DNA of 60,506 nucleotides from Actinobacteria bacterium Ga0077541 (lineage in GTDB: Bacteria > Actinomycetota > Thermoleophilia > Miltoncostaeales > Miltoncostaeaceae). The notes below the pieces were generated by a model. That model was not told the DNA's origin. It searched no databases and was given only the letters and a program-made list of their open reading frames with translations. This document shows positions 40,354 through 52,762 of the stretch, piece after piece. A program made the position numbers and the translations under genes. Numbering within the stretch: position 1 is the first letter of the stretch; each line of letters opens with the position of its first letter. The DNA is taken from assembly GCA_001464995.1 (NCBI GenBank), contig LNEQ01000230.1, positions 1 through 60,506 on the forward strand, written 5' to 3'.

Positions 40354-41328
40354 TCAAGCGGTGCGCGCGCCCCGCAGGCGGTCGCCGCGCGGGTGCGCGA
40401 GCCCGGCCAGCAGGGCGGCGATCACGAGCAGCACGAGAGCGACGGCGGCCACCCACACCGTCAGCTCGCGCAGCTCGGGCACCGGCGCCACGATCGATCC
40501 GATGTCGGCGAACACCGCCTGGAGGTCCTCGGTGGTGGTGGTCTGGGCGAAGAGTCCGCCGGTGCGCGTGGACATCGCGGCGAGGGTCTCGGAGGGCAGC
40601 GGCTGATCGGGGCGTCCGGGGTCGTTGCCCAGGAGGATGGTGTAGACGGGGACGCCGGCCGACGCCGCGCGCTCGGCGGCGGCCTCGGGCGTGGTCGCCC
40701 GGCGGATCGAGTTGGCCCCGTCGGTCAGCACCAGGATCCGGCCGGCCGAGTCGGACGGGTCGGCCGGAGGGGTCTCGGGAATGGCCCCGGAGGCATCGAG
40801 CGCGGCGAGCGAGGTGGTGACGGCGGTGCCGAGGGCGGTGCCGATGCGAGTCTGGGTGACCCCCTCCAGCGCCTCGCCCAGGGCGGCGCGATCGGTGGTC
40901 GGCGCGAGCACCACCTCGGCGCTCTCGGCGAAGGTGGTCACGCCGATCGCCGTGTCCTCGGGCGCCTCGTCGGCGAAGCGCTCGGCCGCGTCGATGGCCG
41001 AGCCGAGCCGGCTCGGCTGCAGGTCGGTCTTCACCATCGACTCGGAGACGTCGATGGTGATCATCACGCTGCTGCGGCGCTCCTCGGCCGTCGCGTCGAC
41101 CGACGGCCGGGCCATCGCCACGACGCCGGCCGCGACCGCGAGCAGCGCGACGGCCGCGGCCGCGGCCCGCATGGTCCGCGCGCGGCGGGTGGGCCCGACG
41201 GCCATGACGGCCGGATCCGCCCATCGCTCGCCGGCGCTGCGCCGCTCGTTCGCCCACGCGAGCAGGCCCGCGGCCAGCGGGATCAGCAGGAGGAGGGCCC
41301 ACAGCCACCCGGGCGACTGGAAGCTCAT
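40354..41328 (-). CDS. VWA-domain membrane protein (BatB-like)
   Basis: SVMITIDVSESMVKTDLQPSRLGSAIDAAERF, ILVLTDGANSI, flanking TM helices. Confidence 0.85.
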   Translation of the reverse strand: MSFQSPGWLWALLLLIPLAAGLLAWANERRSAGERWADPAVMAVGPTRRARTMRAAAAAVALLAVAAGVVAMARPSVDATAEERRSSVMITIDVSESMVKTDLQPSRLGSAIDAAERFADEAPEDTAIGVTTFAESAEVVLAPTTDRAALGEALEGVTQTRIGTALGTAVTTSLAALDASGAIPETPPADPSDSAGRILVLTDGANSIRRATTPEAAAERAASAGVPVYTILLGNDPGRPDQPLPSETLAAMSTRTGGLFAQTTTTEDLQAVFADIGSIVAPVPELRELTVWVAAVALVLLVIAALLAGLAHPRGDRLRGARTA

Positions 41329-42266
41329 GAGAGGCGCGGCCCAAGCCGCCAGGCGGCGACGCCGGCCATCACCAGCAGCAGGGCCCCGAGGCCGGCGGCC
41401 CAGGCGGTGACCTCGCCCTTCACCCGCTCGGTCCCGATGAAGGTGCCGAGCTGCGCGTAGACCGAGCGCACCGACTCGGCGTCGGTGCTCTCGAAGGCGT
41501 CGCCCCCGGTGATGTCGGCGATCTGCTGCAGCCCCTCGGGGTCGGGCGGCACCGGGGTGCCGTCCGAGAGCGTGCCGGAGGAGGTGCCGAGCGCCACGGT
41601 GAACACCGGCACGCCGGCGGCCTCGGCGTCGTCGGCGGCCAGCGAGGGCGGGATGCCGACGGTGGTGGCGCCGTCCGAGAGCACCACGATCCGGGCCGCC
41701 TCGAGCGTGCCGTCCTCGGTGGCGCCCGGCTGGGTGGCGCGGATCGCCTCGAGAGAGGTCGCGATGGCCTCGCCGACGGCCGTCGCGCCCTCGGGGCGCA
41801 GGCCCTCGATCGCGCGCGCCAGCGCGTCGCGGTCGGTGGTCGGCGCGACGAGCAGGTTGGCCTGGCCGGAGAAGCTGACGAGGCCCACCTGGTACTGGCG
41901 CGGCACCTCCTCGGCGAAGGTCAGCGCGGCATCTTGGGCGGCGCGGAGCCGGTAGGGGTCGACGTCGGTCGCCGACATCGACCCGGAGACGTCGATGGCG
42001 AGCATGATCGTGGCGCGCTCGCGCGGCTCGTCGCGGTAGGCCTCGGGCCGCGCCAGGGCGACGGTGAGGGCCGCGAGCGCCAGCAGGGCCAGCACGAGCG
42101 GGAGATGACGGCGGCGGCGCGGGCCGGGATCGGCCCGCGCGATCAGGTCGAGGTCGGGGTACGCGACGCCCTCCACCGGGCGCTGGCGGCGCCACCAGGC
42201 GACCGCCGCCGCGACGAGCGGCACGGCCAGGAGGGCGAGGAGGACGAGCGGCTGCTGGAAGCTCAC
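41325..42266 (-). CDS. VWA-domain membrane protein (BatA-like)
   Basis: TIMLAIDVSGSMSATDVDPYRLRAAQDAALTF, RIVVLSDGATTVG. Confidence 0.87.
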   Translation of the reverse strand: MSFQQPLVLLALLAVPLVAAAVAWWRRQRPVEGVAYPDLDLIARADPGPRRRRHLPLVLALLALAALTVALARPEAYRDEPRERATIMLAIDVSGSMSATDVDPYRLRAAQDAALTFAEEVPRQYQVGLVSFSGQANLLVAPTTDRDALARAIEGLRPEGATAVGEAIATSLEAIRATQPGATEDGTLEAARIVVLSDGATTVGIPPSLAADDAEAAGVPVFTVALGTSSGTLSDGTPVPPDPEGLQQIADITGGDAFESTDAESVRSVYAQLGTFIGTERVKGEVTAWAAGLGALLLVMAGVAAWRLGPRLS

Positions 42267-43193
42267 GCGTGCGACGCCCGTCGCCGGACCACCGGACGGC
42301 CGAGCGCGCGCGCCAGCGGCAGCACCCAGTCGTCGCCGGTACGGGCGATCACGTGGCGCACCCCGGCGCGCGCGAACATCGCATCGCGGGCGCGGTCGGT
42401 CGCCTCGACCGCGGCGGCGAAGCGGCTCTGGAAGCGGGGGTCGGCGGTGTCGACCAGGTGGCGGCGGCCGGTCTCGAGGTCACGCAGGTGCACCGGGCCC
42501 ACGTCGGGCAGCTCGCGCTCGCGCGGGTCGCGGATCTCGATGGCGATCACCTCGTGGCGGCGGCCGAGCGCACCGATGGCGCGCTCCAGGCCCGGCTGCA
42601 GGGGGAAGTCGGAGATGACCACCAGGGCGCCCCGGTGGCGGGCGATGCGGCCGGCCGACGTGACGGCGCGTGCGAGGTCGGTGCGGCCGTCGCCCTCCTG
42701 CGGGGCGGCGACCCGCTCGAGCGCGGCGAGGGCGGAGATCAGCCCGCGGCGGTCGGCGCGCGGCGGGCGCACGAGGTCGATGTCGCCGGCGGCGGTGGCG
42801 AGCAGACCGAGGCGGTCGCCGCGGCGGCGCATGACGACGCCGACGCCGGCCAGCACGTCGCGGGCCAGGTCGATCTTGGTCTGCGACCGGGTGCCGAAGT
42901 GCATCGACGGGGAGCAGTCCACCAGGGCCCAGGCGGTCAGCACGGGCTCGATCTCCGGTACGCGCACCATGGGCTCGCCCAGGCGCGCGCTGAGCGGCCA
43001 GTCGACCCAGCGCACGTCGTCGCCATCCTCGTAGGAACGCGTCAGCGACGGCTCGCCGCCGGGGCCGGGCCGCCGACCGCGCCGCTCGCCCTGGAGCAGG
43101 CCGTCGAGGCGCCGGCCGATGCGGAGCTCCACGCGGCGCAGCAGGGCCTCCGGGGTGGAGGCGGCGCGAGCGGGCGTCGTGCCGGGCTCCCGG

Positions 43194-43213
<20 letters not shown>
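42263..43213 (-). CDS. DUF58 domain protein
   Basis: SYEDGDDVRWVDWPLSARLGEPMVRVPEIEPVLTAWALVDCSPSMHFG. Confidence 0.88.
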
Positions 43214-44231
<1,018 letters not shown>

Positions 44232-44256: not shown

Positions 44257-45183
44257 TCAGGGGGCGCTCTCGACCATCGCCCGCACCCGCGAGGCGGGGA
44301 CGGCGAAGCCGATTCCGACGTTGCCCGAGATCGGGCCGAAGATCGAGGTCGGGATGCCGACGAGGCGGCCGCGGAGGTCGAAGAGGCCCCCGCCCGAGTT
44401 CCCGGGGTTGATCGGGGCGTCGATCTGGATCATCGGGACGCCCTCGGGGTTGGTGCGGCCGACGGCGCTGACGATGCCGGCGGTGACGGTGTTCTGCAGG
44501 CCGAACGGGCTTCCGATCGCGAAGACCTGGTCGCCCTGGCGCAGGCCGGCGTCGGGCTCGTCGGCGAGCTCGGCCCCGCGGCCGACCTCGCCCTGCGGCT
44601 CGAGGATCGCGAGGTCCTGGCGCTCGTCGCGGTTGACGATCGTCGCCGGCACCCGCAGGCCGCCGGCCGTGATGAGCGTGACCGACCCGGCGTTCTGGAT
44701 GACGTGGTAGTTGGTTACCACCAGGCCCGACGGGCTGAGGATGACGCCGCTGCCCTGGCTGCCGACGTCGGTCTGCACCTCGACGACGGTGGGCGCGACG
44801 CGGGCGACGGCATCGGTCAGGCCGGGCTCGGTGTCGGCCGGCGGCGTGACCGTGGCGGTCACCCGCGGCGACTCGGCGGCCACCGTGACGGGCGCCGGGT
44901 CGTCGTCGAAGACGCGGGCCGAGACGCCGCCGACGGCGCCGGCGGCCACCACGGCGAGCGTCACCACCGCGGCGGTCCGCAGCCCTCGCGGGGCGCGGCG
45001 CACCGGGCGGGCCGGGGGCGGAAGGGGCCGCGTCGGCTCGTCGGCGAAGGGGGGCAGCGCCCCCGGGCGGGGGGGCGCGGTCTCGAGAGGAGGGAGGTTG
45101 CCCTGCCGGGCCTCGCGGGGGGCGACCGGCGGGAGCCCCTCGGAGCGCGGGCGGGGCTCGAGGGGTGGGAGTTCGTTGCTCAC
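44257..45183 (-). CDS. HtrA/DegP-like trypsin-type serine protease (S1C), no PDZ seen
   Basis: TM anchor; VVEVQTDVGSQGSGVILSPSGLVVTNYHVI, DLAILEP, PINPGNSGGGLFDLRG. Confidence 0.9.
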   Translation of the reverse strand: MSNELPPLEPRPRSEGLPPVAPREARQGNLPPLETAPPRPGALPPFADEPTRPLPPPARPVRRAPRGLRTAAVVTLAVVAAGAVGGVSARVFDDDPAPVTVAAESPRVTATVTPPADTEPGLTDAVARVAPTVVEVQTDVGSQGSGVILSPSGLVVTNYHVIQNAGSVTLITAGGLRVPATIVNRDERQDLAILEPQGEVGRGAELADEPDAGLRQGDQVFAIGSPFGLQNTVTAGIVSAVGRTNPEGVPMIQIDAPINPGNSGGGLFDLRGRLVGIPTSIFGPISGNVGIGFAVPASRVRAMVESAP

Positions 45184-45556: not shown

Positions 45557-48084
45557 GCGGTGGGCGCCTCGGGCGGAGGCGCGCCCCCGGACCCCGCGCT
45601 GCGGGGACGGCGGCGCCGGCGGCGGCGCTTACGGGCGGGCGCCCCGTCGGCTGCGGCGCCCTCGGGGGGCGGCGTGGCGGCCGGGTCGCGGCGCTCCTCG
45701 CGCCGGGGCGGAGGCCCGTCGGTGGGCGTCGCGGGCGCTCCCTCGGGGCCCGCGTCCACGCGCAGGCGACGACGGCGGCGGCGGCGCGGGCGCCCCGGAG
45801 CGGGCGCGCCCTCCTCCGCTCCGGCCCGCTTGCGCGGCTCGCCGCCGACGCCCACCACCTCGGGCTCGGGCAGGCGGGGCAGGCGGGTGCGGAGCGCGTT
45901 CCAGGCCCGGCGCGAGAGCAGCGCCTTCGGCTGGACCGCTCCGACGGCCGCGCGGAGGGCGCGGCGGGCGTCCGGGCTCGAGAGGTCGAGCGCGTCGAGG
46001 TGGCCGCGCAGCTGCGCCCACCCCCCCACGGCTCCGGCGGCGCGCCCCGCCAGGCGCAGGTGCTCGCTGCGCGCCGGCACGTCGCCGGGGCCGAGCACCA
46101 CCAGCAGACGCGCCGCCTGGCCGAGGCGCAGCACCGAGGGGTCCTCGGGTGCGACGGGGTCGGGGGGCGGCTCGCCCGCGGCGCGCAGCCAGAGGCCGAT
46201 CAGCGCGAGCTCGCCGCCGTTGGAGATCAGGTGGTGCGCCTCCCAGGCGGCGATGCGCGCCACCTCCTGGTTGCGGCCGGGGCGCGTGCCGTCGGCGAGG
46301 ACGCGCGAGACGTCCCACGCCCAGCTGGGCGCCCAGACCGACGCCTCGTCGAGGGCCGACCAGCGGCGGCGGCGGTCGCTGGAGCGGCCGAGCTGCTCGA
46401 GCGTGGCGAGCCGCTCCCAGCGGTCGGTCTGGTCGGCGTGCCACCAGAGCGCCCGCAGGCGCTCGCGGGAGGTCATGCGCAGCCGGTCGAGCACGCGGCG
46501 CGGCACGTCGTCGGGGAGGGCGCGCCGCAGGTCGGGCTGCACGAGCAGCGCCGTGGCCCACGCCCGCCAGAGGGGCTGGTCGGCCCCGTCCTGCATGCGC
46601 CGCGCCACGAGGCCGCTGAGCGCCCACCAGGGAACGGCGGCCAGCGGATCGATGCCGGCGGTGACGCGATCGATCAGCTCGTCGACCGTGACGTCGAAGC
46701 TCGCGGCCTGGACCCACTCCTCCATGAGGTTGACGGGGAGGAGGCCCGGGTCGGCCTCGCGCCAGCCGCCGTCGGCGAGACCGGCGGCGATGAGGCCGGG
46801 GGCCGCGGCGGGGTTGACGAGCTTGGCCGAGTCGCCGTCGCGGTCGGCGAGGACCGCCGCGGCCTTGGCGAGCTTGCCGCGCTCGCCGCCCTCGGGCGGG
46901 CCGGCCACGCGGCCGAGCGGCTTGTACCAGCCGAGCCCGAAGACCTCGTGGCTGGTCTGCACCCCCATCGGGTCGCCGGCCGGGAGGAACTCGACCGACA
47001 CGGCCTCCTTGTCGGGGGCCGGGCGCATCACCCGTCCGAGGCGCTGCACGAAGACCCGCTCCGAGGTCGTCGGGGCGAGGTGCATCACCACGGCGGCGCG
47101 CGTCTCGTCCCACCCCTCCGTCAGCAGGTCGGCGTTGCAGAGCACGTCGATCCGGTCGGAGGCGAAGTCGAAGAGCACGCGCTGGAGCTCCTTGGGGGGC
47201 GTCTGCCCCGACACCGCGGCGGCGCGCACGCCGCGCTCGGTGAGCTCCTCGGCGAGCGCGTGCGCCTGTGCGACGGTGGCGGTGTAGGCGACGCCGGCCA
47301 GCTTCAGCGGCTGGAAGTGCTCCACCCAGACCTCGGCGCAGGCGCGGTGCCAGCGCGCGCGATCGAGGGCACGGCCGAGGCTCGCCTGGTCGAAATCGCC
47401 GCGCACGCGGGCCACGTCGGAGAGGTCGACGGCCCGCTCCACGCGCAGCGAGCGCAGGGGGCAGAGGATGCCGCGCTCGATCGCCGAGGCCCGGTCGAGG
47501 GTGGCGGCGACCGGGCCGAACACCTGCTCCACATGGCCGGTGGTGGTGGCGCCCGTCGCCGTGAAGCCCACGACGACCGCGTTGCGCGCCCGGTCGAGCA
47601 GCTTGCGGGTCTGCGCCCCGAGGGTCGCGTGGGCCTCGTCGCAGATCAGCAGGGTCACCGCGTCCCAGTCCATCCGGTCCTGGTGGCGCAGGGCCGCCTG
47701 GTAGGTGCAGACCGTGACCCCGGGCTTTCCGGCCGCGTCGGGTCCCTCGGGGTTGGAGGGGACCGCCGTGAAGTGGCGGGCCAGGCCCGCCGCGGTCTGC
47801 TCGGCCAGGTTCCGCCGCGGCACCAGGACCACCGTGCTGCCCCCGAGCGCCTGGGCCAGCGCCAGGAACATGATCGTCTTGCCCGACCCGGTCGGCGCGT
47901 CGACCCAGGTCCGCATCGTGCCGTGCGTCAGCCGACCGGCCAGCTCGTCGAGGGCCTCGATCTGATGCTCGCGGAGCACGACGTCCGGCCAGGCGGTCGC
48001 CGGTTCGGCGAGCGCGCGCGCGAGTGCCTCGCCGGGCGACGCGGTGGCGGGCGATTCGGTCATCGGATGCGGTGCTTCGGGCAT
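45553..48084 (-). CDS. SF2 DEAD/DEAH-box helicase with Arg-rich disordered C-terminal tail
   Basis: LREHQIEALDEL, VDAPTGSGKTIMFLALAQAL, LLICDEAHATLG, VVGFTATG, VLCNADLLTEGWDE, QRLGRVMRP; tail RPRRRRRRRLRVD ... ARKRRRRRRRPRSAG. Confidence 0.88.
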   Translation of the reverse strand: MPEAPHPMTESPATASPGEALARALAEPATAWPDVVLREHQIEALDELAGRLTHGTMRTWVDAPTGSGKTIMFLALAQALGGSTVVLVPRRNLAEQTAAGLARHFTAVPSNPEGPDAAGKPGVTVCTYQAALRHQDRMDWDAVTLLICDEAHATLGAQTRKLLDRARNAVVVGFTATGATTTGHVEQVFGPVAATLDRASAIERGILCPLRSLRVERAVDLSDVARVRGDFDQASLGRALDRARWHRACAEVWVEHFQPLKLAGVAYTATVAQAHALAEELTERGVRAAAVSGQTPPKELQRVLFDFASDRIDVLCNADLLTEGWDETRAAVVMHLAPTTSERVFVQRLGRVMRPAPDKEAVSVEFLPAGDPMGVQTSHEVFGLGWYKPLGRVAGPPEGGERGKLAKAAAVLADRDGDSAKLVNPAAAPGLIAAGLADGGWREADPGLLPVNLMEEWVQAASFDVTVDELIDRVTAGIDPLAAVPWWALSGLVARRMQDGADQPLWRAWATALLVQPDLRRALPDDVPRRVLDRLRMTSRERLRALWWHADQTDRWERLATLEQLGRSSDRRRRWSALDEASVWAPSWAWDVSRVLADGTRPGRNQEVARIAAWEAHHLISNGGELALIGLWLRAAGEPPPDPVAPEDPSVLRLGQAARLLVVLGPGDVPARSEHLRLAGRAAGAVGGWAQLRGHLDALDLSSPDARRALRAAVGAVQPKALLSRRAWNALRTRLPRLPEPEVVGVGGEPRKRAGAEEGAPAPGRPRRRRRRRLRVDAGPEGAPATPTDGPPPRREERRDPAATPPPEGAAADGAPARKRRRRRRRPRSAGSGGAPPPEAPTA

Positions 48085-48310
48085 CGCGTGCCAACCTCCA
48101 GGGCACGGGCGCAAGCCGGGTCTGATGTCCGGCGCGTCAGCGGTCGCGGTCCGCGCGCGTTCGTCTCGTCACCGGCGAGGGACCGTTTTTCCGTTCGCCG
48201 GCAGCGCGGAGAGATGCGACCGGCCGCAACCCTATCACCGGGCCCGGCGGAGATCACAATCCCTGACGACCGGGGTGGGGGGTAGCATCGCGGGCGGTGA
48301 CACGGACTCC

Positions 48311-48874
48311 ATGACTCCCGAGACCGACACGGTCCCGCCCGAGCGCCCGGAGGGCGGCGGCTGGATCCGCCCGGTGGCCCTCGTCGCCTCGTGCCTGGTG
48401 ATCGGCTTCGTCGGCGGCTGGGTGCTGCGCGGCGACGAGGGCCCGGTGACGGTGCTCGCCCCCGCGGCGCCGGTCGACACGGGCGAGACGGGGTCGGTGA
48501 CGACCGGCGGTACGTCCACCGCGCCGGCCGCCACCACGAGCACGGCCCCCACCACCGCGCCGGCCGCCCCGGCGCCGCCTCCCGACCGCTCCGACATCCG
48601 GCTCGTGGTGCTCAACGGCACCAACGAGAACGGCCTCGCCGGACGCATCGCGGCCCAGGCCGAGAGCCTCGGATACAGCGGCGTGACGGCGGGCAACGCA
48701 CCCACCTCCACGAGCCCGTCGGTCACCTACTTCACCCCCGGCCAGCGGCCCGCGGCGCAGCGCGTCGCCCGCGACCTCGAGATCGAGGCCATCGAGGCGC
48801 TGCCCACCTCGGGCGCACTGGCGGCGGCCACGCCCGAGGGCACCGACGTGGCGCTCGTCCTCGGCCCCGGGTAG
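48311..48874 (+). CDS. LytR C-terminal-domain membrane protein
   Basis: N-terminal TM, Thr/Ala/Pro linker, IRLVVLNGTNENGLAGRIAAQAESLGYSG. Confidence 0.8.
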   Translation: MTPETDTVPPERPEGGGWIRPVALVASCLVIGFVGGWVLRGDEGPVTVLAPAAPVDTGETGSVTTGGTSTAPAATTSTAPTTAPAAPAPPPDRSDIRLVVLNGTNENGLAGRIAAQAESLGYSGVTAGNAPTSTSPSVTYFTPGQRPAAQRVARDLEIEAIEALPTSGALAAATPEGTDVALVLGPG

Positions 48875-48881
48875 ATGCCGG

Positions 48882-51317
48882 GTGGGCGGCCGCCGCCCCT
48901 CGATCGGGGTCCGGATCCCCCAGTACGGGTCGAGCTGGCCCGAGATCCGCGCGGCGGCGGTCCGCGCCGAGCAGCTGGGCTTCGACGGCGTCTGGGCGAA
49001 CGACCACTTCCAGTCGCCGGGGAGGGTGAAGCAGGACACCGCCTTCGACGCGTTCGTCACCCTGAGCGCCCTCGCCGAGGCGACCGAACGGGTGCGGCTC
49101 GGCACCGTGGTGCTCTCGGCCGCCTACCGCCCCCCGGCCGTCGCGGCCAAGATGGCCACGGTCCTCGACGTCATCTCGGGCGGGCGGCTGGTGGTGGGCC
49201 TCGGGGCGGGGTCGAACGTCGAGGAGCACCGGGCCTTCGGCATCCCCTTCGGCACGCCCCCCGAGCGCACCGAGGGCCTCCGCGAGGCGCTCGACACGAT
49301 GCGGGCGATGTTCGACGGCGACACCTCCGGCGGGGCGCCGCCCAACCGCCCGCCCCCGGCGCAGCCCGACGGGCCGCCGATCTGGGTGGCGGCCCACCGG
49401 CGGCGGCTGCTGCGGCTGGCCGGGGAGCGCGCCGACGGGATCGTCGCCGCCTTCCACGGCCCCGGCGTGGTCGCCGCGCGCCTCGCGATCGCCGACGAGG
49501 CGCGCCGGGCCGCCGGGCGCCCACCGCTCGCCTGCGCTTTCTACACCTTCGTGCTGGTCGCCCCCACGCGGCGCGAGGCGGAGTCCTGGGTGGCCGCCGA
49601 GGCGCGGCAGCTCGGGACCACTCCGGCCGGCTACCTGCGCTGGATGCGGACCACCGGGGTCGTCGCCACCCCGGCCGAGATGCGCGACGCGATCTCCGCC
49701 TACGGGGCCGCCGGCGTCACCGACATGGTCATGGTGCTCCCCTCCCGGGTGCCCCCCGAGGCGATGGAGGCGCTCGCCGAGGCGTCGCTTCCGGAGCCCC
49801 TGCCGGCCCCGCGCCCGCCCGGCCCGCGGGTCGCCGCCGGAACCGATCCATCGCACAACCTCGTGAACCTGCTGGTGGAGCGCCAGGCCGAGGCCGGGCT
49901 CGACGCCCAGGACGCGGTGGTGGACGACGACGGCGCGTGGACCTACGCCGAGCTCTCGCGCGCCGCCGCCCGCGGGGCGGGTGCGTTGCGCGACGCGGGG
50001 GTGGGGCGCGGCGACCGGGTGGTGGTCGCGCTCCGCGACGGCCGTCCGTGGTTCCAGGCCTTCCTCGGTGCGGCCCGCCTGGGGGCGGTGCCCGTGCCCG
50101 TCGACCCCGCCGGCGACCCCGCGCGGCTGGTCGGCCTGATCGACGACTGCGAGCCGGCGGCCGTCGTGGCGGAGGAGGACGTCGCGGGGGTCCCCGCCGG
50201 GCCCCGCCTGCTCCGGCCGGAGGCGCTCGAGGCCGGAGCGGAGCAGCCGCTGCGGGCGGTCCACCCCGAGGACCTCGCCTACCTCATCTACTCCTCCGGC
50301 TCGACCGGCCGGCCGAAGGGGGCCATGCACGCCCACCGCGACATGCGCGTGGGGATCGACACCTACGCGCGCGAGGTCCTCGGCCTGACGCCCGGCGACC
50401 GGTGCCACTCGATGGCGCGCCTGTTCACGTCGCTCGGCTTCGGCAACGGGTTCTTCCGGGTGCTCGGCCGCGGGGCGACGGCCGTCGTCTCGGGGCTGCT
50501 GCCGACGCCGCGTGCGGTGCTCGGTACGGTCGCGCGCGGTCAGGTGACCGTTCTCACGGGCGTGCCGACCTTCTGGTCGCAGCTCGCGCGCTTCCTCGAG
50601 CGCCATCCCGACCGGGAGGCCCTCGCCGGCGTCCGGCTGGCCGTGTCGTCGGGCGACAGCCTGCCCGCCTCGGTGGCCGCCCGCCTGCGCTCGGTGACCG
50701 GCATCGACCTGATCGAGGGCCTCGGCTGCTCGGAGTGCTCGAACGTCGTCATCTCGACCCGCCCGGGCGAGCCGGTCCGGCCGGGGACGCTCGGCCGCAC
50801 GGTGGCGGGCGTGGAGATCCGGCTGGCCGACGACGACGGCCGGCCCGTCCCGGCGGGCGATCCGGGCCGGCTGTGGATCCGCAGCGAGTCGAACACCACC
50901 GGCTACTGGCGCCGCTCGGACGAGACGCGGGAGCTCGTGATGGGGCCCTGGCTGAGGATGGGGGACGTGCTCGCCGAGGAGGACGGCGTCTACCGGCACC
51001 TGGGTCGCTCGGACGACCTCTTCAAGGTGGACGCGCGCTGGGTGAGCCCCTCCGAGGTGGAGGCCGCGCTGGTCGGCCACGACGCGGTGTCGGAGGCGGC
51101 CGTCGTCGGGCGAGCCGACGAGGAGGGCCTGATGAAGCCCGCCGCCTACGTCGTGCTGTCGCCCGGAGCGAGCGAGGAGGGCCTCGCCGCCGAGCTGCGC
51201 CGCCACGTGGCGCGTGCGCTCGGCCCGCACACGGCCCCGCGCACGGTCACCGTGCGGGCGGAGCTCCCCCGTTTGCCGTCCGGGAAGCTCGATCGGCGGT
51301 CTCTACGCGGGGCCTGA
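48882..51317 (+). CDS. LLM-class flavin-dependent monooxygenase fused to benzoate-CoA-ligase-like adenylating enzyme
   Basis: N: IGVRIPQYGSSWPEIRAAAVRAEQLGFDGVWANDHF...GRLVVGLGAGSNVEEHRAFGIPF; C (~49850 on): NLVNLLVERQAEAG...WTYAELSRAAARGAGALRDAGVGRGDRVVV, LIYSSGSTGRPKGAMHAHRD, GCSECSNVVIS, YRHLGRSDDLFKVDARWVSPSEVE, LPRLPSGKLDRRSL. Confidence 0.88.
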   Translation: MGGRRPSIGVRIPQYGSSWPEIRAAAVRAEQLGFDGVWANDHFQSPGRVKQDTAFDAFVTLSALAEATERVRLGTVVLSAAYRPPAVAAKMATVLDVISGGRLVVGLGAGSNVEEHRAFGIPFGTPPERTEGLREALDTMRAMFDGDTSGGAPPNRPPPAQPDGPPIWVAAHRRRLLRLAGERADGIVAAFHGPGVVAARLAIADEARRAAGRPPLACAFYTFVLVAPTRREAESWVAAEARQLGTTPAGYLRWMRTTGVVATPAEMRDAISAYGAAGVTDMVMVLPSRVPPEAMEALAEASLPEPLPAPRPPGPRVAAGTDPSHNLVNLLVERQAEAGLDAQDAVVDDDGAWTYAELSRAAARGAGALRDAGVGRGDRVVVALRDGRPWFQAFLGAARLGAVPVPVDPAGDPARLVGLIDDCEPAAVVAEEDVAGVPAGPRLLRPEALEAGAEQPLRAVHPEDLAYLIYSSGSTGRPKGAMHAHRDMRVGIDTYAREVLGLTPGDRCHSMARLFTSLGFGNGFFRVLGRGATAVVSGLLPTPRAVLGTVARGQVTVLTGVPTFWSQLARFLERHPDREALAGVRLAVSSGDSLPASVAARLRSVTGIDLIEGLGCSECSNVVISTRPGEPVRPGTLGRTVAGVEIRLADDDGRPVPAGDPGRLWIRSESNTTGYWRRSDETRELVMGPWLRMGDVLAEEDGVYRHLGRSDDLFKVDARWVSPSEVEAALVGHDAVSEAAVVGRADEEGLMKPAAYVVLSPGASEEGLAAELRRHVARALGPHTAPRTVTVRAELPRLPSGKLDRRSLRGA

Positions 51318-51895: not shown

Positions 51896-52762
51896 TCAGA
51901 GAGAGCCGAGGAAGTCCAGGAGGAGCTCGTTGACGCGGTCAGGGACCTCCTGCTGCACCCAGTGGCTCACTCCCGGGAGGCGCTCGATCCGCAGGGGCCC
52001 CGTAACGGTGGCCGCCGAGCGCTCCAGCAGCACCGGGTCCATGTATGCGTCGGCCTCGCCCCAGATGATCATCGTGGGCACGGGGACGGGCGGCGGGTCG
52101 GGGGGGTCGCGCAGCCAGGAGGCGGGCGGCATGTTGGCCCGGTAGTAGTTGAGCGCCGCGGTGAGGGCCCCGTCGCGCCGCAGCGCCTCGACGAAGACCT
52201 CGCGCTCCTCGTCGGGGAACGTCCCCGGAGCGGCGGTGTCGAACACGAACTGGCGCAGGTTGGCGAAGTCGTCGGCCGACAGCCAGGCCTCCGCGACGCC
52301 GGGGAACTGGAACAGCAGCATGTACCAGCTCTTCGCGCGCTGGGCGGGGTCCTCGCGGCGCAGCCGCGCCGACACCGGCCCGACGGGGGCGTTCAGGATG
52401 GTCAGCGACCGCACCATGTCGGGCAGGTTGCCCGCGAGCCCCCAGGCGAGGCCACCGCCCCAGTCGTGCCCCACCACGTGCGCGCTCTCGTGACCGAGCG
52501 CGCGGATCAGCCCGGCGACGTCGCCCACGAGCTTCGGCGCGGCGTAGGCGTCGACCGCCGCGGGCCGGTCCGATCCGCCGTAGCCGCGGAGGTCCGGCGC
52601 GACGGCGTGGAACCCGGCGGCCGCGAGGGCCGGCAGCTGATAGCGCCACGAGTGCCCGATCTCCGGGAAGCCGTGGAGCAGGACGACCGGCTCACCGGCG
52701 GGATCCCCGGCCTCCGTGATCGCGAGGCGGACCTCGCCGACGTCGATGCGGCGCGTGCTCAT
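51896..52762 (-). CDS. Alpha/beta hydrolase (epoxide-hydrolase-like)
   Basis: VVLLHGFPEIGHSWRYQLPAL, APDLRGYGGSDRP, VVGHDWGGGLAWGLAG. Confidence 0.9.
   Translation of the reverse strand: MSTRRIDVGEVRLAITEAGDPAGEPVVLLHGFPEIGHSWRYQLPALAAAGFHAVAPDLRGYGGSDRPAAVDAYAAPKLVGDVAGLIRALGHESAHVVGHDWGGGLAWGLAGNLPDMVRSLTILNAPVGPVSARLRREDPAQRAKSWYMLLFQFPGVAEAWLSADDFANLRQFVFDTAAPGTFPDEEREVFVEALRRDGALTAALNYYRANMPPASWLRDPPDPPPVPVPTMIIWGEADAYMDPVLLERSAATVTGPLRIERLPGVSHWVQQEVPDRVNELLLDFLGSL

Follow-up and report, generated by a model that had tools for sequence, protein, structure and literature searches.

The window analyzed here, the whole 60,506-nt stretch of DNA, belongs to a 3.16-Mb draft genome that is 93% complete (G000). 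On its forward strand it contains an open frame with a GTG start, whose translated product of 811 aa consists of an N-terminal luciferase-like monooxygenase (LLM) half and a C-terminal half of the ANL superfamily of adenylating enzymes (Table 1). Pfam yields three domain matches only: Bac_luciferase (PF00296) at residues 15–244, with 158.8 bits against a cutoff of 27.9, AMP-binding (PF00501) with 247.6 bits, and AMP-binding_C (PF13193) with 68.7 bits; no carrier protein or condensation domain was found in this search. Of the hallmarks of the ANL superfamily, PF00501 and PF13193 together with motifs A3, A5, A7, and A10 including the catalytic Lys are present.

An earlier reading made from the letters of the sequence (hereafter, the sequence-only reading) had described this frame as a complete LLM enzyme fused to a complete ANL enzyme through a Pro-rich linker of about 25 aa, with no carrier domain, and had contrasted it with NRPS-associated LLM fusions. 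This description agrees well with the domain set and with the residues found to be invariant in both halves. The motifs quoted in it, YSSGSTGRPKG, the hinge segment GRSDDLFKVDARWVSP (residues 708–723), and PSGKLDR, which contains Lys802, were all located in the translation, and the linker comprises about 20–25 aa (residues ~303–326), is rich in Pro and Ala, and appears flexible. MupA-type NRPS/PKS proteins are a known case of LLM and adenylation domains within the same chain. A fusion of this NRPS/MupA type was considered and rejected, as the score with TIGR04020 is 42.4 bits against a cutoff of 244, and both carrier and condensation domains are absent.

The AlphaFold2 model of the LLM half has pLDDT 89.8 and pTM 0.88. 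The full-length model has a pTM of 0.58 and gives no indication that the halves pack in a fixed way, and the linker, with pLDDT below 50, is predicted to be disordered. An 832-aa antisense frame opposite the fusion gene (48732–51230, minus strand) is an unsupported shadow ORF of high-GC DNA.

Table 1. Features at the fusion locus (positions in the window).
Feature	Position	Strand	Evidence and remarks
LytR_C gene, membrane-anchor-like N-terminus (by eye)	48044..48874	+	PF13399; ends 7 nt before fusion start
LLM-ANL fusion gene	48882..51317	+	Translation, Pfam, orthologs with 54–72% identity
LLM domain, residues ~7–305, TIM-barrel-like model	48900..49796	+	PF00296; AlphaFold2; Foldseek PDB matches to LLM/F420 enzymes
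His42 of N-D-H motif, LLM half	49005..49007	+	N40, D41, H42 invariant columns; aligns with "DH" of Mer and fHMAD
Interdomain linker, residues ~306–326	49797..49859	+	pLDDT <50 at 306–319
AMP-binding (N-terminal ANL) domain, residues 334–676	49881..50909	+	PF00501; top PDB match benzoate-CoA ligase 2v7b
ANL motif A3 (P-loop) YSSGSTGRPKG, residues 470–480	50289..50321	+	S471–G476, P478, K479 invariant in 21 proteins
ANL motif A5 G-C-S-E, residues 615–618, then C-S-N	50724..50735	+	Sequence, alignment
ANL motif A8/hinge RSDDLFKVDA, residues 709–718, Ala718 for usual Gly	51006..51035	+	Motif definition from PMC8388817
AMP-binding_C domain, residues 725–802, up to catalytic Lys802 (motif A10)	51054..51287	+	PF13193; K802 invariant
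Alpha/beta hydrolase, epoxide-hydrolase-like by eye (VGHDWGG), convergent	51896..52762	-	PF00561/PF12697

The LytR_C gene is a conserved upstream neighbor of the fusion in many relatives, not in all. In several relatives of genus g12 (L074–L086) the two genes overlap by 4 nt, which suggests coupled translation. A functional operon of LytR_C and the fusion was considered and set aside, as LytR_C is not recognized beside the fusion in five genomes (G019, G020, G010, G003, and G001), and for this reason we treat it as a neighbor and not as a part of the enzyme. A helicase-like gene (identified by eye) is also a conserved neighbor, while genes of the same cluster as the downstream alpha/beta hydrolase occur at 15 of 34 compared loci, with a HAD hydrolase in its place in genus g12. 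Farther upstream, VWA proteins, a DUF58-like protein, and a MoxR-type ATPase stand in a row by eye (41325–44231 and 44257–45183, both on the minus strand); the row adjoins a trypsin-like (HtrA-type) protease, and the order is kept in relatives. No pathway genes were seen around the fusion, in line with the initial impression that there is no obvious surrounding pathway.

Conservation, Distribution and Origin of the Fusion

Orthologs with 54–72% identity read through the joint in a single frame in dozens of genomes, which rules out a chance ORF; recurrence of the in-frame fusion across genomes of the family likewise rules out an assembly joint as its source. In 21 aligned fusions, N40, D41, H42, and many other residues are invariant in the LLM half, and K479, E618, D695, R709, and K802 in the ligase half. 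Loss of catalytic residues in either half, named beforehand as an observation that would speak against a working fusion, is thus not seen, and judging by the residues retained both halves look active. Moreover, dN/dS measured in ten pairs of close relatives amounts to 0.10–0.20 for the LLM half and 0.11–0.19 for the ligase half, so that purifying selection is similar on the two. The linker, by comparison of 28 fused proteins, varies in length from 18 to 49 aa and is not conserved in sequence.

Among 42 genomes of Miltoncostaeaceae (class Thermoleophilia), 35 carry the fused gene (some of these copies are cut by contig ends), three have the halves as separate genes (G005, G006, and G015, with a helicase-like gene between the halves in G015), three lack it (G004, G016, and G021), and one (G037) could not be assigned owing to contig breaks. 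At the thresholds used, no fused copy was found in 399 genomes of the class and 397 genomes of the phylum outside the family. A scan of 84,980 species, which detects close relatives only, yielded such relatives almost exclusively in Miltoncostaeaceae contigs, and among plasmid records 116 hold a relative of some part of the protein and none covers 80% of it. By these searches the fusion is a signature of Miltoncostaeaceae, though the same two domains may have been joined independently in other groups. Three MAG contigs with the fusion are labelled Bifidobacterium breve or Acidobacteria (L020, CAMCDF010000005.1; L035, CAMAVU010000052.1; L019, JAGWYY010000031.1); mislabelling or contamination of the bins is the probable cause.

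The fusion ligases group as a single clade, sister to a second one that also consists of Miltoncostaeaceae ligases. In the maximum-likelihood ligase tree the separate-gene members (G015, and G005 together with G006) branch first, with UFBoot values of 77 and 84, and this basal position makes separate genes the likely ancestral state, followed by one fusion. Most likely, then, a single fusion of an adjacent gene pair, LLM followed by ligase, occurred within early Miltoncostaeaceae. In a quick tree of the LLM halves, built with no support values, the separate genes are not basal. A similar gene pair from G170 (L071) was considered as the ancestor and rejected as an independent pairing, given that its LLM passes TIGR03619 and its ligase groups elsewhere.

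The fusion is thus real and conserved; taken singly, its halves are unremarkable representatives of large superfamilies. We have not found such an LLM–ligase fusion described in the literature searched; the possibility, raised at the outset, that it is an already characterized enzyme found no match there, and the protein is apparently previously undescribed.

Ligase Half and Related Loci

The best PDB relatives of the ligase half are the benzoate-CoA ligases 2V7B, 4WV3, and BadA, and its best NCBIfam match is the model of this family, TIGR02262, with 369.9 bits, just under the cutoff of 375.25; a standalone relative, the ligase of L126, scores 474.7. With the benzoate-CoA ligase family (2V7B of Paraburkholderia xenovorans and 4EAT, BadA) it shares the ANL fold and motifs A3, A5, A7, and A10, but differs in the predicted pocket stretches, in the Ala of motif A8, and in the attached LLM domain. 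Namely, S-L-G replaces A-Y-G after the A4 region, and after A5 the fusion ligase has C-S-N-V versus M-L-H-I, so that the L-H-I-F stretch of benzoate-CoA ligases reads S-N-V-V; these replacements are largely conserved in the fusion clade. The A-Y-G and M-L-H-I stretches presumably line the acid pocket, as in BadA-type structures. Given the sub-cutoff score and the differing predicted pocket residues, benzoate is not supported as the substrate, nor is another known aromatic acid, as the family also lacks the 2-aminobenzoyl-CoA monooxygenase/reductase; an aromatic acid, as suggested earlier, is possible but unsupported. Substrate-site residues are known to vary even between enzymes of the same substrate (PMC8388817).

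The A8 motif, Rx(D/K)x6G, is incomplete: R709 and D711 are kept, and Ala718 stands for Gly in nearly all fused members. The Gly is retained in the separate-gene proteins of G005 and G015, and single members of the sister clade carry Ala. As the A8 motif has been linked to the pantetheine tunnel (PMC8388817), and the Gly replaced by Ala718 lies beside this tunnel, the CoA step could be altered. This is a single deviation and does not put membership in the ANL superfamily in doubt.

The sister clade is represented in the window's own genome by a paralogous ligase with 42% identity (G000:C246:31914–33413; L129 6349–8382, minus strand). Downstream of the ligase gene, the sister clade has an SDR dehydrogenase gene; a 4HBT thioesterase gene lies between the two in L066 and in L129 (G000), where it was assigned by position and sequence and the three genes form an apparent operon. 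This arrangement looks like an oxidoreductase acting on a CoA ester.

In other Actinobacteria, an LLM gene is located directly upstream of a benzoate-CoA-ligase-family gene in 6 of 41 loci (L111, L126, L135, L142, L147, and L071) and within a few kilobases of the ligase in three further ones, the rate being inflated since some loci were chosen for matches running upstream of the ligase. Four of them (L111, L126, L135, and L142) are clusters of the 2-aminobenzoyl-CoA (anthranilate) type, in which the LLM gene stands between the ligase and a homolog of the bifunctional salicylyl/2-aminobenzoyl-CoA hydroxylase-reductase (PRK08255-type). The likeness to the fusion lies in the LLM directly upstream of the ligase; the differences are that the clusters have separate genes, that in the LLM tree their LLMs lie far from the fused one, and that they contain the PRK08255-type enzyme. 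In Miltoncostaeaceae no homolog of the 2-aminobenzoyl-CoA monooxygenase/reductase was found, a lone match in G001 spanning the OYE part only. Given this absence and the distant lineage of the cluster LLMs, membership of the fusion in an anthranilate-CoA pathway was rejected. In some LLM/ligase clusters elsewhere, genes for acyl-CoA dehydrogenase, enoyl-CoA hydratase, and RidA-type proteins are present as well. As their LLM lineages are distant, such loci argue by analogy only, and in this way favor a cooperation between LLM enzymes and ligases of this family.

LLM Half and Its Cofactor

The LLM half scores under the cutoff of every F420 subfamily, the best being TIGR03560 with 141.4 bits against 231.4, and belongs to no curated subfamily; in the LLM tree it forms a branch of its own. 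Still, its top NCBIfam neighbors (TIGR03560, TIGR03621, and TIGR03619) are labelled F420-dependent, and its best PDB sequence matches are the F420-dependent Mer and fHMAD, with the alkanal monooxygenase alpha chain also among the best; in sequence it is closer to the F420 enzymes than to most FMN monooxygenases. With TIGR03560 (F420_Rv1855c), Mer (1F07), and FGD2/fHMAD (9FP4) it shares the TIM-barrel LLM fold, the D-H motif, whose His42 we equate with the active-site His of FGD/LuxA, and the L-A-G-x-x-A-D-G loop; it differs from TIGR03560 in the score and in its occurrence in genomes without F420 biosynthesis genes. Foldseek matches the model to 3RAO (E = 6e-20) and FGD2 (3e-19), with TM about 0.8, and the best fold matches are a mixture of F420 and FMN enzymes that does not separate the cofactors. 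The FMN-dependent MsuD, SsuD, SfnG, and bacterial luciferase have the fold in common with the model (TM-score about 0.75–0.8), but identity to them is low, 19–24%, and the fusion to a ligase is peculiar to the Miltoncostaeaceae protein. In this superfamily the F420- and FMN-dependent enzymes are related to each other, with F420 use regarded as derived from FMN use (PMC6279831).

The sequence-only reading had named F420 or FMN as the cofactor and had proposed a check of co-occurrence with F420 biosynthesis. In Miltoncostaeaceae the biosynthesis genes are patchy, being found in about two thirds of genomes (CofH and CofE exceed the cutoff in 27 of 42 each) and missing in several near-complete ones. 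CofD, CofE, and CofH over the cutoff are all absent from G000, G019, G014, G012, G011, and G018, six fusion carriers counted as near-complete, of which G019 is one contig with 99% completeness. Sub-cutoff CofH matches near 300 bits were set aside; we assume them to be the related MqnC/MqnE of the futalosine pathway. The three genomes that lack the fusion, G004, G016, and G021, have F420 genes. The absence of these genes from six fusion carriers, the window's genome and the single-contig one included, turns the co-occurrence check against F420, makes this cofactor unlikely, and points to FMN as the more likely one.

Proposed Reaction and Its Alternatives

Our leading reading, which we hold tentatively and at somewhat less than an even chance, is a single-chain bifunctional enzyme of one fusion origin, in which the ligase would make a CoA thioester and an FMN-type LLM half would oxidize the same skeleton. 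The C-terminal half would act as an ATP-dependent acyl (possibly aryl) CoA ligase, adenylating a carboxylic acid at the site formed by motifs A3, A5, A7, A8, and A10, and after rotation about the hinge the acyl group would pass to CoA. The N-terminal LLM-fold flavoenzyme, using FMN reduced elsewhere, would act on the carbon skeleton of that acid, with the CoA thioester as the most likely form to be oxidized, and the disordered tether may hold the two active sites together with no fixed interface. Retention, in nearly every sampled species of the family, of a fusion found nowhere else argues that the two steps are probably linked and act on one molecule. We infer ligase first as the best-supported order from the sister ligases, including one in G000, that precede an SDR with 4HBT and thereby resemble a system with a CoA-ester oxidoreductase; the opposite sequence of steps is almost equally open.

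In that reverse order, possible if doubtful as a complete account, an FMN-dependent LLM half would use O2 to make a carboxylic acid, either from an aldehyde, as bacterial luciferase does, or by oxidative cleavage of a C-C, C-S, or C-N bond, and the ligase half would capture the acid as a CoA thioester. It agrees with the presence of MsuD, SfnG, and SsuD among the closest folds and of the alkanal monooxygenase alpha chain among the best sequence matches, as well as with the LLM standing upstream of the ligase in all fused copies and in same-strand pairs of adjacent genes; however, gene order says little on the order of reactions, and the sister ligases accompany enzymes for which CoA esters are the expected substrates. 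A rather improbable alternative retains F420, the LLM half being an F420-dependent hydride transferase supplied with the cofactor from elsewhere in the non-producing lineages. The F420 labels of the top NCBIfam neighbors, Mer and fHMAD as top PDB sequence matches, and CofE in 27 of 42 genomes fit this, whereas the six near-complete carriers with no CofD, CofE, or CofH over the cutoff, one of them a single contig, the F420 genes of the fusion-less G004, G016, and G021, and the lack of any F420-family model at cutoff are against it, as is a word search of the F420 review PMC8498797, in which the term "uptake" was not found.

The remaining alternatives separate the halves from CoA or from each other. 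Transfer of the acyl-adenylate to a non-CoA acceptor (a free carrier protein or an amine), or direct oxidation of the adenylate, would account for Ala718 in place of the A8 Gly beside the pantetheine tunnel in nearly all fused members (PMC8388817), but we consider it very improbable, as the closest solved relatives are CoA ligases, Gly persists in G005 and G015, Ala occurs in the sister clade as well, and no nearby carrier protein gene was recognized. Even less credit is given to the possibility that the two halves have substrates with no relation to each other, the fusion having arisen incidentally when neighboring genes lost a stop codon. Separate genes in G005, G006, and G015, in the last with the helicase-like gene in between, and the lack of a pathway context could be explained in this way; preservation of the fusion in most genera, despite the large divergence within the family, the comparable dN/dS values of the halves, and recurrence of LLM genes beside related ligases elsewhere could not easily be.

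A more specific form of the preferred ligase-first reading, which we regard as unlikely though worth stating, is a two-site enzyme of one family that activates an acid new to benzoate-type ligases and oxidizes its CoA ester through an LLM domain that uses FMN but stems from F420-type enzymes. If true, it would mean a new oxidation of a CoA ester and a switch of the cofactor back to FMN.

The protein offers a concrete starting point for assigning a substrate to an LLM enzyme, a class in which many members lack one, and for testing whether an LLM of the F420 type works where the host cannot synthesize F420. The fixed pairing of an LLM with a ligase, kept in nearly every sampled Miltoncostaeaceae genome, even in those of ~1.5 Mb, suggests a two-step reaction of importance to this little-studied family.
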